Assembly: GCA_022711595.1 (NCBI GenBank)
Contig: JAKLET010000019.1
Coordinates: 1 to 64,000 of the forward strand
DNA: 64,000 bases
Reading direction: 5' to 3'
Origin: Deltaproteobacteria bacterium
GTDB lineage: Bacteria; Desulfobacterota; Syntrophorhabdia; Syntrophorhabdales; Syntrophorhabdaceae
The notes beneath the pieces were generated by a model, which did no database searches, had not been told where the DNA came from, and saw nothing but the letters and a program-made list of their open reading frames with translations. Positions 7,522 through 48,706 of this stretch are shown here, piece after piece (positions within the stretch are counted from its first letter, which is position 1; the number at the start of each line of letters is the position of its first letter). The position numbers were made by a program, and so were the translations under genes.

Positions 7522-7842
7522 GATTCACCTCATTGGATAATAGATATAGATGTTTTTATGGTGCTCCCTGTATGAAATGGCCTCGTCCTTCATATTCGTT
7601 CTTCAGTGTATTTCGCGAAAACGGGTGACCGGTCTTTTATTAAGGGTGGGAGACCCGATGATATCTTTCTGGCTCGCCTGACAGTTTCCCTTTTCCCTTC
7701 TTAAGTACCATATACAAAAATATGTATGTGCCGTCTGAAATGAGCTCATACATAAAAGGCTTGCCATTTTATAATGGTTTAGTATAATGCATAAGGTTCA
7801 AATAATCAAAAAAATTTTCTTGCAGGTACAAGCCGAACATCC
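7522..7842. other. Divergent intergenic region between guaB and the ABC ATPase pair
   Basis: This 321-nt gap separates guaB (minus) from the peptide-type ABC ATPase gene (plus). Its right half is AT-rich and holds a good sigma70-type promoter for the plus-strand genes, listed separately. An imperfect palindrome, catatacaaaaatatgtatg, lies near 7710-7730. No small gene or RNA was recognised, and no convincing guaB promoter was found. Confidence 0.6.
7761..7788 (+). promoter_or_regulatory. Predicted sigma70 promoter for the dppD/dppF-like pair
   Basis: TTGCCA at 7761-7766 and a perfect TATAAT at 7783-7788 are separated by 16 nt. Transcription would begin near 7795, about 48 nt before the first ATPase start. 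Confidence 0.65.
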
Positions 7843-8823
7843 ATGGTCATTACAAACGATAAAACGCTCCTCGAGGTAACCGGTCTTACGACCTCGTTCT
7901 TTACCGGCGAAGGGACCGTGCACGCCGTCAATGATGTGGCATTCACGGTTGGCAGGGGCGAGATCTTCGGTCTCGTCGGGGAGAGCGGTTCAGGCAAGAC
8001 GGTCACCGCCCATTCGATCATGAGACTGGTCCACCAGCCGGGAAGGATAACGGGAGGCAGGATCGTCTTTGAAGGCAGGGACCTGCTCGGTCTTAATGAG
8101 AAACAGATGGAAGAGGTCCGCGGCAGCCGCATCGGGATGGTCTTTCAGGAACCCATGACGGCCCTGAACCCTGTCCTGAGGATCGGTGAACAGATATCCG
8201 AGACGCTGGAGATACACCGGGCGTCCGGCGGGAACGGGATCAGGCAAAGGGTTATGGAGCTTTTAAACAAGGTGGGGTTCGATGATCCTGAAAAGCGCCT
8301 CATCCAGTATCCCCATCAGCTCTCCGGCGGTCAGCGCCAGAGGGTGCTCATGGCCATGGCGATCGCCTGCGGCCCTTCCCTTGTCATCGCCGATGAACCG
8401 ACGACGGCCCTCGACGTGGCCACGCAGTCACAGATACTGGGCCTTCTTGAAGGGCTCGTGGACACCCTGGATATGTCGATGATATTCATAACCCACGACC
8501 TCAATATCGTCAGGTCGCTGGGCCATTCGATCGGCCTGATGTACGCGGGGAGGATGCTTGAGCTCAGCAGGGTCGAAAATTTTTTCAAACAGCCCCTCCA
8601 CCCTTACGGCAGGGGGCTTCTGGGATCGATAGGGGGGTTTTCGGGCAGTGCCAGGCGGCTCACGGCCATACCGGGCAGTGTTCCAAGACTTTCGGAACTG
8701 CCAACGGGCTGCACCTTTCATCCAAGGTGCCCTTATATAATGGATATGTGCAGGGTCAAAGAGCCCGTCATGAAAGAGGTGGAAAAGGATCAATGGGTCC
8801 GCTGTTATCTGTATCAGAACTGA
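7843..8823 (+). CDS. Oligopeptide/dipeptide-type ABC transporter ATPase (DppD/OppD-like)
   Basis: ATPase of a peptide/nickel-type (PepT family) importer, acting on the inner face of the membrane. The 326 residues contain Walker A GESGSGKTVTA, the signature LSGGQRQRV, Walker B LVIADEPTTALD and the H-loop ITHDLN. The C-terminal oligo-HPY extension carries GCTFHPRCPYIMDMC, which in some homologues binds an iron-sulphur cluster. AGGT is 17 nt before the ATG, so the ribosome binding site is poor. The partner ATPase follows with a 31-nt overlap. No permease or binding-protein gene is adjacent, so the substrate cannot be inferred from context. Confidence 0.93.
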   Translation: MVITNDKTLLEVTGLTTSFFTGEGTVHAVNDVAFTVGRGEIFGLVGESGSGKTVTAHSIMRLVHQPGRITGGRIVFEGRDLLGLNEKQMEEVRGSRIGMVFQEPMTALNPVLRIGEQISETLEIHRASGGNGIRQRVMELLNKVGFDDPEKRLIQYPHQLSGGQRQRVLMAMAIACGPSLVIADEPTTALDVATQSQILGLLEGLVDTLDMSMIFITHDLNIVRSLGHSIGLMYAGRMLELSRVENFFKQPLHPYGRGLLGSIGGFSGSARRLTAIPGSVPRLSELPTGCTFHPRCPYIMDMCRVKEPVMKEVEKDQWVRCYLYQN

Positions 8824-9734
8824 AAAAGTACTACGAGATCAGAAGGTCGGTATTTTCCGTTGAAAAAGAGACCATAAGGGCCGTTGACGGCGTTACTTTT
8901 GAGCTTGAGGCAGGCAAGACCCTCGGTATCGTGGGGGAGAGCGGCTCGGGCAAGAGCACCTTGGCGCGGTGCGTCCTCCTGCTCGAGAGGCCCGACAGCG
9001 GCGGGGTGGTTTTCTGCGGCACCGACCTGCTCAAGGCCGGAAGGGAGGGCATAAGGGATTTGCGCCGGCAGATGCAGATAATCTTCCAGGACCCCTATTC
9101 GTCCCTGAACCCGAGGATGAAAGTGCTCGACATCATTGCCGAACCGGTCGTGTACCACGGAATAGCGAAAAAGAGGGACGCGAGGGAGAAGGTCATGGAG
9201 ATCTTAAGGAGCGTCGGTCTCGATGAGGATTTCCTCGGAAAATACCCCCATGAGATGAGCGGCGGCCAGAGGCAGAGGGTCGCCATCGGCCGGGCCCTCG
9301 CGACGGATCCGGCGCTCATTATCGCCGACGAGCCCGTATCGTCCCTCGATGTCTCCATACAGGCCCAGATCGTCAATCTTTTCCTCGATATACGCGAACA
9401 ATCGGGTATCTCCATGATCTTCGTCTCCCACGACCTGAACGTCGTCCGCTTCCTCTCGGACCACATCCTTGTCCTTTACAGGGGGAAGGTGGTCGAGGCA
9501 GGCGAGCGCGACGAGGTCTTTTTCAACCCCCTTCACCCTTACACGAGGATGCTCCTTAGCGCCTCGAGGGGAGAATTTTTTCTCGAAACAGACCCGGCCG
9601 ACGGCGAAAACGCCGCCCTGTGCCCCTATTATAATAAATGCAAGGAAAAAACCGCCCGCTGCGGCGAACAGGCACCCGTTCTGGCAGGTGAAGAGAAGCA
9701 CAGGGCCGCATGCCTGCGAAATGGTTTATTTTAA
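8793..9734 (+). CDS. Oligopeptide/dipeptide-type ABC transporter ATPase (DppF/OppF-like)
   Basis: Second ATPase of the heterodimeric peptide-importer motor, 313 residues. Walker A is GESGSGKSTLA, the signature MSGGQRQRV, Walker B LIIADEPVSSLD, and the C-terminal cysteine cluster CPYYNKCKEKTARC is typical of the oligo-HPY tail. I chose the ATG at 8793 (MGPLLSVSELKKYYEI), which has AAGGA just upstream; a longer frame from 8727 lacks family-like sequence. It overlaps the 3' end of the upstream ATPase by 31 nt, implying coupled translation. The permeases are missing on both sides: guaB lies upstream on the other strand and the pilin gene downstream. Confidence 0.93.
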   Translation: MGPLLSVSELKKYYEIRRSVFSVEKETIRAVDGVTFELEAGKTLGIVGESGSGKSTLARCVLLLERPDSGGVVFCGTDLLKAGREGIRDLRRQMQIIFQDPYSSLNPRMKVLDIIAEPVVYHGIAKKRDAREKVMEILRSVGLDEDFLGKYPHEMSGGQRQRVAIGRALATDPALIIADEPVSSLDVSIQAQIVNLFLDIREQSGISMIFVSHDLNVVRFLSDHILVLYRGKVVEAGERDEVFFNPLHPYTRMLLSASRGEFFLETDPADGENAALCPYYNKCKEKTARCGEQAPVLAGEEKHRAACLRNGLF

Positions 9735-40105: not shown

Positions 40106-40120
40106 TTTATACTGTCTAAT
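40106..40120. promoter_or_regulatory. Upstream operator-like site of the MerR-cyclase gene
   Basis: TTTATACTGTCTAAT matches the perfect downstream palindrome at 13 of 15 positions and lies exactly 33 nt (about three helical turns) before it, just upstream of the -35 box. Confidence 0.5.
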
Positions 40121-40127
40121 TATTTTC

Positions 40128-40155
40128 TTGACAATTAGTTTATACTGTATAAATA
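40128..40155 (+). promoter_or_regulatory. Predicted promoter of the MerR-adenylate cyclase gene
   Basis: A consensus TTGACA (40128-40133) and TAAATA (40150-40155) are separated by 16 nt. The -10 region lies inside a palindrome, which suggests repression or MerR-type distortion. Confidence 0.55.
40139..40153. promoter_or_regulatory. Perfect 15-nt palindrome over the -10 region (operator candidate)
   Basis: TTTATACTGTATAAA has 7-nt arms around one central T. It covers the spacer and -10 of the predicted promoter and has a second, 13/15 copy upstream. Autoregulation by the MerR domain of the adjacent gene is a natural explanation. Confidence 0.6.
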
Positions 40156-40199
40156 TGTAATCTATTGAGGGAGCTTTCCTTAGGCGGGGTGAATGAGAG

Positions 40200-41789
40200 A
40201 TGGGGGAGAAAGAGAAACAGAAATTAATAGACAGTAAAGAGCTTCTGAACAGGTCAGATATATCGAGGGCCACTCTCAACAACTACATTAAGCTTGGCAT
40301 CATACCGCGGCCCCTTGTGAAGAGTCCTGCGGGCGGATTAAAGGGGACGAAGAAGATCGGGTATTTCCCGGAAACTGTCTTAGACACTATCAGCGAGATC
40401 AAGAAGATGAAAGGTGAAGGCAAGTCCATGGGGTCCATAGCAAGAAAGGTCCGGGCTGTCACGGATGAACGTACTTCATATGCAGGCCCGGAGCGCAGAG
40501 AGCCCGATCCGTCATCTGGCGGACCTCAGGATGCAGGCACCGCGATACAGATGGAGGATGACTGCCTGAAGCTTACCCTTGACGAGATAAAGACCCCCGC
40601 CTATCTCCTCAACTATCAGTTTGAGATCGAATGGATAAACGAAACTGCGGAACACAGCATATTCGGCAAGCCCATAAAGTCCATAAGGAACGTTGAGCTC
40701 AGAAATGTTTTCAGGCTTTTTTTGAGCTGGGAGTTCAGCAGCTTCGTCAGGAACTGGGAAAATTTTCTTGATTACCACATGGCATTCTACAAGGTTAAAA
40801 TGGAGAAGGAAAATCTTTCACAGCTCTATACGGGCATGTCCAGAAGGGAAACGCAATACCTGCATACCGCTTACGACAGAGTGCAGAAGATACCGATGGA
40901 AAAGATATATCAGCACGTGGTCGATATTGAGGGGTCTTCCGGCACCAAGGACAGGTATATTGTCTATACGACTTTTTTCAGGGAAGGAATGTTCTTTCTC
41001 TATACACATGCGGATACCGTTACGGAGGGCATCACGGAATTTCTGTCCAACCGTGAGGTTGTCGTAAGAGACCTTCTGCAGCAGCGGCTTCCGACCCTTG
41101 TTTCCTTCAGCGTCCTTGTCGCCGATCTCCAGAACTCGGTGCGCATCTGCGCGGAGCTTCCCCCGGAAGAGTATTTCGAGCTTATAAATTCCATGTGGCG
41201 GATACTCGAAGAGTCCTTCAGGCAGTATAACGGCATATACGGCAAGAGGATAGGTGACGGAGTCGTTTACTATTTCCTTAAAAAACAGGACCCTGACTAC
41301 ATCATGAACTCGATCAACTGCGCCCTTGCGATCCGTGAAAGGATGACGGGATTTTCCAACGAATGGAAGGCAAGGAAAAAATGGCTTAACGACCTGTACC
41401 TGAATATGGGGATCAATGAAGGACAGGAATACTTCAGCACAACCGCACCTTCATCCACCAACGTGGAGTTCACCGCCCTCGGCGACACCATCAATTACGC
41501 ATCCAGACTTTCAAACCTTGCCCGTTACGGCACGATACTGACGACAAAGAACCTGATGAACCAGCTTGACGATCCTCACAGGGGCAAGTTTCGTTACGGT
41601 ATCAGGAAGAAAGCTGAAGACCGCGAGGTTTTCATCGAGAACGTTTTTTCCCGTGTCGATGACCTGCTTAAGGGCAACGAAACGTGGCGCCAGCGCTTCG
41701 CTGATATATCCACATTGCCCATAACGGAGATAGTGGACAACAAGGCGGGAATCTCCAAACAGCAGGGAACAGGAAACGGCAATACATAA
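40200..41789 (+). CDS. MerR-type DNA-binding protein fused to a class III adenylate/guanylate cyclase
   Basis: 529 residues in one continuous frame. Residues 10-85 form a MerR-like winged helix (SRATLNNYIKLGIIPRPLV, then GYFPETVLDTISEIKKMK). Residues 120-200 look PAS-like (TPAYLLNYQFEIEWINETAE), followed by a helical sensor or linker. Residues 295-480 are a class III cyclase: VLVADLQNSV with metal Asp near 309, KRIGDGVVYYF with the second Asp near 352, and EFTALGDTINYASRL with the transition-state Asn and Arg near 430. It should therefore be active, making cAMP or cGMP. Glu stands where adenylate-specific enzymes usually have Asp, so the nucleotide is uncertain. Palindromic sites lie in its promoter, and an ABC exporter gene follows. 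Confidence 0.88.
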   Translation: MGEKEKQKLIDSKELLNRSDISRATLNNYIKLGIIPRPLVKSPAGGLKGTKKIGYFPETVLDTISEIKKMKGEGKSMGSIARKVRAVTDERTSYAGPERREPDPSSGGPQDAGTAIQMEDDCLKLTLDEIKTPAYLLNYQFEIEWINETAEHSIFGKPIKSIRNVELRNVFRLFLSWEFSSFVRNWENFLDYHMAFYKVKMEKENLSQLYTGMSRRETQYLHTAYDRVQKIPMEKIYQHVVDIEGSSGTKDRYIVYTTFFREGMFFLYTHADTVTEGITEFLSNREVVVRDLLQQRLPTLVSFSVLVADLQNSVRICAELPPEEYFELINSMWRILEESFRQYNGIYGKRIGDGVVYYFLKKQDPDYIMNSINCALAIRERMTGFSNEWKARKKWLNDLYLNMGINEGQEYFSTTAPSSTNVEFTALGDTINYASRLSNLARYGTILTTKNLMNQLDDPHRGKFRYGIRKKAEDREVFIENVFSRVDDLLKGNETWRQRFADISTLPITEIVDNKAGISKQQGTGNGNT

Positions 41790-48342: not shown

Positions 48343-48706
48343 GGGTAGACTGTAAGCCGGGTTCTGTATCCCGCCGATGGGCGGAAGCGGTGATCATTTC
48401 TCTAAGGGTCCGGGTTTCCCCGGACCTCAAGCGGCCTACCCGGGTAATGGACGGGCCATCCATGCCGTCTTGAAGGACGGCACCCTCTTTGGCCTTGCAT
48501 CGGATGGGGTTTACAAAGCTCCCGTGTCGCCACGGGACTGGTGAGCTCTTGCCTCGCCATTTCACCCTTACCCCTGCCTGAGCGGGGCGGTATCCTTTCT
48601 GTTGCACTTTCCCTGGGGTTGCCCCCGGTTCCCGTTAAGAACCATCCTGCCCTTCGATGCCCGGACTTTCCTCCCCGCATGAAGCGGAGCGACCACCCGT
48701 CTACCC
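48343..48706 (-). ncRNA. rnpB: RNase P RNA (bacterial class A)
   Basis: On the minus strand this about 364-nt RNA has matching ends (GGGTAGAC at 5', GTCTACCC at 3'), the conserved GAGGAAAGTCCGGGC block (48659-48673), ACAGAAA and GGGTGAAA elements, and the terminal ACAGAACCCGGCTTACAG (48351-48368). A T run follows at 48335-48342. It is the catalytic part of RNase P, which matures tRNA 5' ends. The 5' end touches the rnhA stop codon. A weak promoter (CGGACA-16-CATAAA) lies inside the 3' end of rnhA. Confidence 0.97.

Follow-up and report, generated by a model that had tools for sequence, protein, structure and literature searches.

Can an enzyme that makes a second messenger also be the transcription factor of its own gene, and if so, which promoters does it bind? 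The question is raised by one gene in the window, i.e., the 64,000 nucleotides of Syntrophorhabdaceae contig JAKLET010000019.1 that were analysed. A first-pass annotation had described this gene as encoding a one-protein circuit, in which a MerR-type winged helix, a PAS-like segment and a class III nucleotide cyclase lie in a single 529-residue frame and could tie promoter binding to the production of cAMP or cGMP. The three domains are indeed encoded in one open reading frame of that length (Table 1); the start given previously, position 40106, includes the promoter, and the reading frame proper begins at 40200. A search of NCBIfam with the protein gave no match. The whole chain was modelled with AlphaFold2 (pLDDT 82.2) and, because the cyclase domain filled the fold lists of the whole protein, the N-terminal part (residues 1–282) was also modelled separately (pLDDT 83.9).

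Table 1. Positions in the window of the promoter elements, the gene and the domains that it encodes.
Feature	Position	Strand	Basis
Operator O1 (putative), dyad TATACTGTCTA	40108..40118	+	Exact TAKACWGTMTA match; just upstream of -35
Probable -35 hexamer TTGACA, between the two operators	40128..40133	+	Sequence; promoter role inferred
Operator O2 (putative), 15-nt palindrome TTTATACTGTATAAA	40139..40153 (core 40141-40151)	+	Overlaps spacer and -10 region
Gene for MerR-type winged helix / PAS-like / class IIIb nucleotide cyclase protein	40200..41789	+	Open reading frame, 529 aa
MerR/GlnR-type winged helix, residues 8-91; recognition helix SRATLNNYI, residues 22-30	40221..40472	+	Homologue profile matches, fold
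PAS-like sensor domain, residues 125-275; resembles MltR/MmyB ligand-binding domain	40572..41024	+	Fold; PF17765 in homologues
Class IIIb cyclase domain, residues 297-517	41088..41750	+	PF00211, CyaB match, residue conservation

Profile searches for both the MerR and the guanylate cyclase domains had been proposed in the first-pass annotation. For the former, 40 of the 46 full-length homologues match MerR_1 (PF13411), at E values down to 9.4e-8, though Pfam did not detect it in the window's single sequence. A profile search with the N-terminal region found MerR of Bacillus megaterium (4ua1; E 0.0032), the sole match with an aligned stretch that passed independently; the three remaining matches are named as designed or unnamed constructs. 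In fold comparison, the predicted N-terminus superposes on the winged helices of SoxR bound to DNA (Z 10.7), PbrR691 (10.5), TnrA (4r24; 10.5), GlnR bound to DNA (4r4e; 10.3) and CarH (5c8d; 9.5), and on those of CueR and MtaN within the same range (Z 9.5–10.7). By its N-terminal winged helix, the protein is a member of the MerR superfamily. In the alignment of the 46 homologues, residues 21–40 have a mean identity of 0.86 and are the most conserved block of 20 residues aside from gap-filled C-terminal columns, and the conservation of the recognition helix equals that of the catalytic core. The long, antiparallel coiled-coil dimerisation helix of MerR is absent in both models, in which residues from about 90 to 122 form a low-confidence coil or linker that is followed by the PAS-like domain. 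The description “MerR-type” applies to the winged helix and does not extend to the dimerisation helix.

The PAS-like segment was recovered by its fold: residues 125–275 align with MltR (3pxp) over 144 residues with a Z of 10.1. The corresponding family, PF17765 (MLTR_LBD), was found in 11 of the 46 homologues at E<=0.1 (best E 6.4e-5), and scored 13.3 bits in the protein of the window, under the cut-off of 26.3.

In the C-terminal part, PF00211 (Guanylate_cyc) spans residues 303–466 (E 5.4e-9; 36.3 bits vs a cut-off of 21.9). Among proteins of known structure in the PDB, CyaB of Pseudomonas aeruginosa is the nearest in sequence (E 9.8e-10), and the predicted model has the class III cyclase fold, matching CyaB (Z 22.2 over 186 residues) and CyaC (Z 21.5). 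Both metal aspartates (D309 and D353) and the Asn/Arg pair (N432 and R436) that had been read from the sequence are confirmed, and together with a Lys/Thr pair (K349 and T425) they are the residues of a class III cyclase of subclass IIIb. D309 and D353 are found in every one of the 46 full-length homologues, K349, N432 and R436 are each missing from a single one, and T425 is kept in 33; both aspartates with the Lys, Asn and Arg are all kept in 45. Catalytic residues in the large majority of the family are under clear constraint. From established knowledge of class IIIb, the Lys/Thr pair is presumably that of ATP specificity, which would narrow the earlier “cAMP or cGMP” to cAMP. This specificity is less sure in the betaproteobacterial homologues, because 12 of them, which are the only homologues to do so, have Ala, Val or Met in place of the Thr; one further homologue (L049) has Arg.

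Searches for homologues gave about 50; rather than a fusion that arose by chance, this is a genuine protein family, with members in Desulfobacterota, Polynucleobacter, Mariprofundus and Gammaproteobacteria. The species-level genome collection holds 50 loci, which belong to Desulfobacterota/Syntrophales, Polynucleobacter and other Betaproteobacteria, Mariprofundus, Gammaproteobacteria and one Rhodospirillaceae MAG. Full-length orthologues are present in 7 of 12 searched genomes of the genus and in 8 of 25 other genomes of the taxonomic family, and these are 47–76% identical (71–76% within the genus). The distribution is patchy, with a homologue in 13 of 395 genomes of the phylum (lacking the cyclase domain in two) and in 5 of 299 in a sample of Burkholderiaceae. 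The host genome of the window (G000) has eight PF00211 matches, yet a winged helix of this type only once.

One homologue lies on a MAG contig labelled Bacillota (L046; JAKPZU010000313.1) but nests among those of Desulfobacterota in the tree, and the contig is probably misbinned. A phage-borne family was considered and rejected, the match to viral contigs being single and partial (L167). A conserved gene neighbourhood was likewise rejected: the neighbours are etfBA in close relatives and genes of c-di-GMP signalling in Polynucleobacter, a pattern that was read as lineage synteny. The flanks in Polynucleobacter (L070–L082; e.g. L078:2864-5860 and 7594-9186) carry a MASE1-PAS-GGDEF-EAL gene and a convergent GAF/HD-GYP gene, and genes of HD-GYP type are also near the gene in L054, L056 and L086. 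A link between cAMP and c-di-GMP, or mere shared synteny, is possible behind these flanks.

Which DNA would the winged helix bind? The 15-nt palindrome that had been noted upstream of the gene is present, and it is accompanied by a second dyad (Table 1). In Desulfobacterota, two dyads of the form TAKACWGTMTA flank the -35 hexamer and overlap the -10 region. The motif emerged as a recurrent element when the upstream regions of the homologues were read, and there are 33 exact dyads in 45 family promoters, vs 0.12 expected from dinucleotide shuffles. Of the 53 family promoters, 47 contain the half-site CTGTMTAA, in 104 copies, vs 2 of 224 neighbouring-gene promoters (Fisher 7e-44), and there are 8.4 half-sites per kb of promoter vs 0.056 per kb over the remainder of these loci. 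The control promoters, which offer the strongest comparison, are those of other genes at the same loci and have a G+C content of 43% vs 34% in family promoters; the shuffle control preserves composition. The top 8-mers in de novo counts were ACTGTCTA (25/53 vs 0/224) and CTGTATAA (41/53 vs 1/224), both of which are parts of the half-site.

The placement of the sites in the window follows that in the family. The centre of O1 is 15 bp before TTGACA, and outside Betaproteobacteria it is 12–16 bp before in 18 of the 22 family promoters with an upstream site; the centre of O2 is 18 bp after the start of TTGACA, compared with 18–21 bp in 16 of the 26 non-betaproteobacterial promoters measured. The hexamer TTGACA itself is found in 31 of 38 family promoters outside Betaproteobacteria. 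Betaproteobacterial promoters have half-sites more than full dyads, and have no TTGACA. When all sites were tested for helical phasing with a period of 10.5 bp, the result was not significant (p 0.11).

Taken together, the protein is probably an autoregulated homodimeric adenylyl cyclase which is also a sequence-specific DNA binder, limits its own synthesis, and has cAMP as its outward signal. The two-fold symmetry that palindromes call for is assigned to the catalytic homodimer, because the MerR coiled coil is absent: the class III catalytic dimer would at the same time set two winged helices on each palindrome. Protein bound at O2 (over the -10 region) and at O1 (beside the -35) would block RNA polymerase, and the enzyme would thereby curb its own synthesis. 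Through a ligand or a change of redox state, the PAS-like domain may shift both DNA binding and cAMP output, and the cAMP would act on receptors of the CRP/FNR type. The DNA-binding part would set the dose of the cyclase, and the product of the cyclase would be the signal to the outside of the circuit. Candidate cNMP-binding proteins number 12 in G000 and 3–6 in Polynucleobacter genomes. In Polynucleobacter finlandensis (G062) and Polynucleobacter sp. 71A-WALBACH (G063), which have three and six of these respectively, this protein is the sole class III cyclase found in a search for that class.

The regulation would most likely be repressive. This is judged from operator placement, and a MerR-like activator could occupy the same place, in which case binding between the -35 and the -10 would remodel the promoter, the PAS-like domain, when loaded, would switch it on, and the gene would be a one-gene bistable switch with cAMP as output. 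The winged helix is of MerR type, O2 is located between TTGACA and the -10 region, and the 14 bp from TTGACA to TATAAA in the window is a poor spacing that could need distortion. However, promoters of MerR regulators proper have spacers longer than normal (19–20 bp), whereas those of the present family, which O2 overlaps together with the -10, are short to normal, i.e., about 14–17 bp to a -10-like sequence where this was read. Furthermore, a second site upstream of the -35 and near-consensus hexamers are a better fit to a strong promoter that is repressed, so that positive autoregulation is rather unlikely.

Repression by an active cyclase also has to be weighed against a role in which DNA binding comes first and the cyclase domain is mainly a sensor of ATP or nucleotides, or a dimerisation unit, that tunes DNA binding, with cAMP being secondary. 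Some members of the family are of interest here. Two complete open reading frames of 280–281 amino acids in two genomes (L140, 1492-2334, in G373; L141, 1492-2337, in G233) have only the winged helix and the PAS-like domain; both copies in G186 (L139 and L142) have an intact winged helix and have lost both metal aspartates; and in G023 (L049/L022) the winged helix is intact and the Lys, Thr, Asn and Arg positions of the cyclase domain are lost. The half-site is absent from the promoters of L142 and L049 and is retained at those of L139 and L140, which therefore supports this role in some lineages; there, DNA binding seemingly can persist after catalysis is lost. For the family as a whole such a role is unlikely, as 45 of 46 homologues keep catalytic residues that a mere binding domain would not need, and the degenerate forms, few in number, sit on long branches of the tree.

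Does the protein then regulate other genes? A single double half-site (gap of 12–40 bp) is present in the 3.5 Mb of G000, and it is located at the promoter of the gene itself. In 20 genomes, 18 of the 19 matches listed stand before the cyclase gene, as read from coordinates, leaving one off its own promoter; with the reversed pattern as control, eight matches arose by chance. Exact dyads were no commoner than the reversed control pattern in any of the genomes searched. Beyond its own promoter, G000 has four other exact dyads. Two of these are copies of a longer palindrome, GTATACTGTATAC (G000:C3:46787-46797 and 48391-48401; L096), which flank a TRAP-like transporter, upstream of a CoA-transferase-like gene (the neighbours being named from sequence reading only); they probably belong to another regulator. 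The remaining two look coding or due to chance. A global regulator of many genes, rather than of itself, would be consistent with these four dyads and with genome-wide scans that covered exact dyads and double sites rather than single half-sites; the control-level frequency of the dyads, the nature of the four extra dyads in G000 and the single double site off its own promoter make it improbable, and the regulon hypothesis was rejected. The DNA-binding domain appears to be dedicated to its own gene, perhaps with some weak additional targets at single half-sites. The one-protein circuit proposed at the outset is thereby well supported and becomes sharper: its target, as far as sequence can tell, would be chiefly its own promoter and not a set of regulated genes.

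The protein and the sites also vary together. Genes whose product has the recognition helix SRAT[LM]NNY have the half-site at 47 of 49 promoters, vs none of the four with a changed helix (L062, L065, L138 and L043; Fisher 5e-5), and L015 (SRSTLNNY), examined separately, is also without it. The two promoters that lack the half-site despite a normal helix belong to L049 and L142, in each of which the cyclase domain is damaged. The four helix changes are on separate tips of the tree, and a tree-aware sign test gave p 0.125, four pairs being too few for significance. From these sequence comparisons, the protein very likely binds its own operator. Look-alike altered motifs are present upstream of L015, L043 and L138 (CTGTATAT, TTATTCTATATAAAT and CTGTAAAT); perhaps the operator specificity has shifted. 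That a different regulator binds the operators, with the winged helix serving protein contacts or nothing, would accord with a protein–site link drawn from sequence and a tree-aware test short of significance, but is highly improbable given that the sites stand almost only before this cyclase gene, across phyla that share little other regulation, that recognition helix and catalytic core are conserved to the same degree, and that all sampled proteins with a changed helix are without the half-site. A further step, to a closed circuit of a single gene, in which operator binding and catalysis are allosterically coupled via the shared dimer and the PAS-like sensor essentially no other promoter is bound, and one protein would sense, set its own dose and emit cAMP, can be taken only tentatively.

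Each part of the protein has known relatives. The fold of the winged helix is common to GlnR and TnrA, members of the MerR superfamily without the coiled coil; these have no cyclase or PAS domain, act in nitrogen control and have a different operator. CarH/LitR resemble the present protein in the fusion of a MerR-type winged helix to a sensor, which in their case binds cobalamin, and they have no enzyme domain. In MltR of Chloroflexus aurantiacus (MmyB-like), a PAS-like ligand domain is beside a DNA-binding domain, as here; it has no cyclase, and its helix-turn-helix (HTH) is of a different kind. The structure of MltR was solved with myristic acid (PMC3406030). The class IIIb cyclases CyaB (P. 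aeruginosa) and CyaC (Spirulina) have the catalytic fold and the Lys/Thr set in common with the present protein but, unlike it, have no DNA-binding domain.

A close parallel is found in the mycobacterial Mclx proteins (Rv0386, Rv1358 and Rv2488c), which have a class III cyclase and a LuxR HTH in one chain, are described as nearly exclusive to mycobacteria and as lacking physiological and functional study, and include members without canonical cyclase residues (PMC4452763). What they share with the present family is the joining of a class III cyclase to a DNA-binding HTH in a single chain. The order of domains differs: in Mclx, the cyclase is N-terminal, AAA/NB-ARC lies between, and the LuxR HTH is C-terminal, whereas here the MerR-type HTH is N-terminal, the PAS-like domain follows and the cyclase is C-terminal. 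Profile searches of the protein and its homologues reported no LuxR match. Set against Mclx, a conserved operator at its own promoter is a feature of the present family. A literature search, with subscription journals largely outside its coverage, found no paper on the architecture of MerR-type domain, PAS and cyclase, so that the earlier view of the combination as a regulatory class not previously described stands for the exact domain order; it does not stand for cyclase–HTH fusions, which are known as Mclx (PMC4452763). The fusion of a cyclase to an HTH is already known; the new element is the dedicated self-operator.

Cyclases that bear an HTH have been listed before, and in the literature found their DNA targets are not given. 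The present family offers a conserved, almost unique operator at its own gene, which occurs also in cultured Polynucleobacter. With it, experiments can ask if an enzyme that makes a second messenger also acts as the transcription factor of its own gene, and if its catalysis is coupled to binding at the operator; a compact, self-limiting cAMP module of this kind would be useful in synthetic biology.
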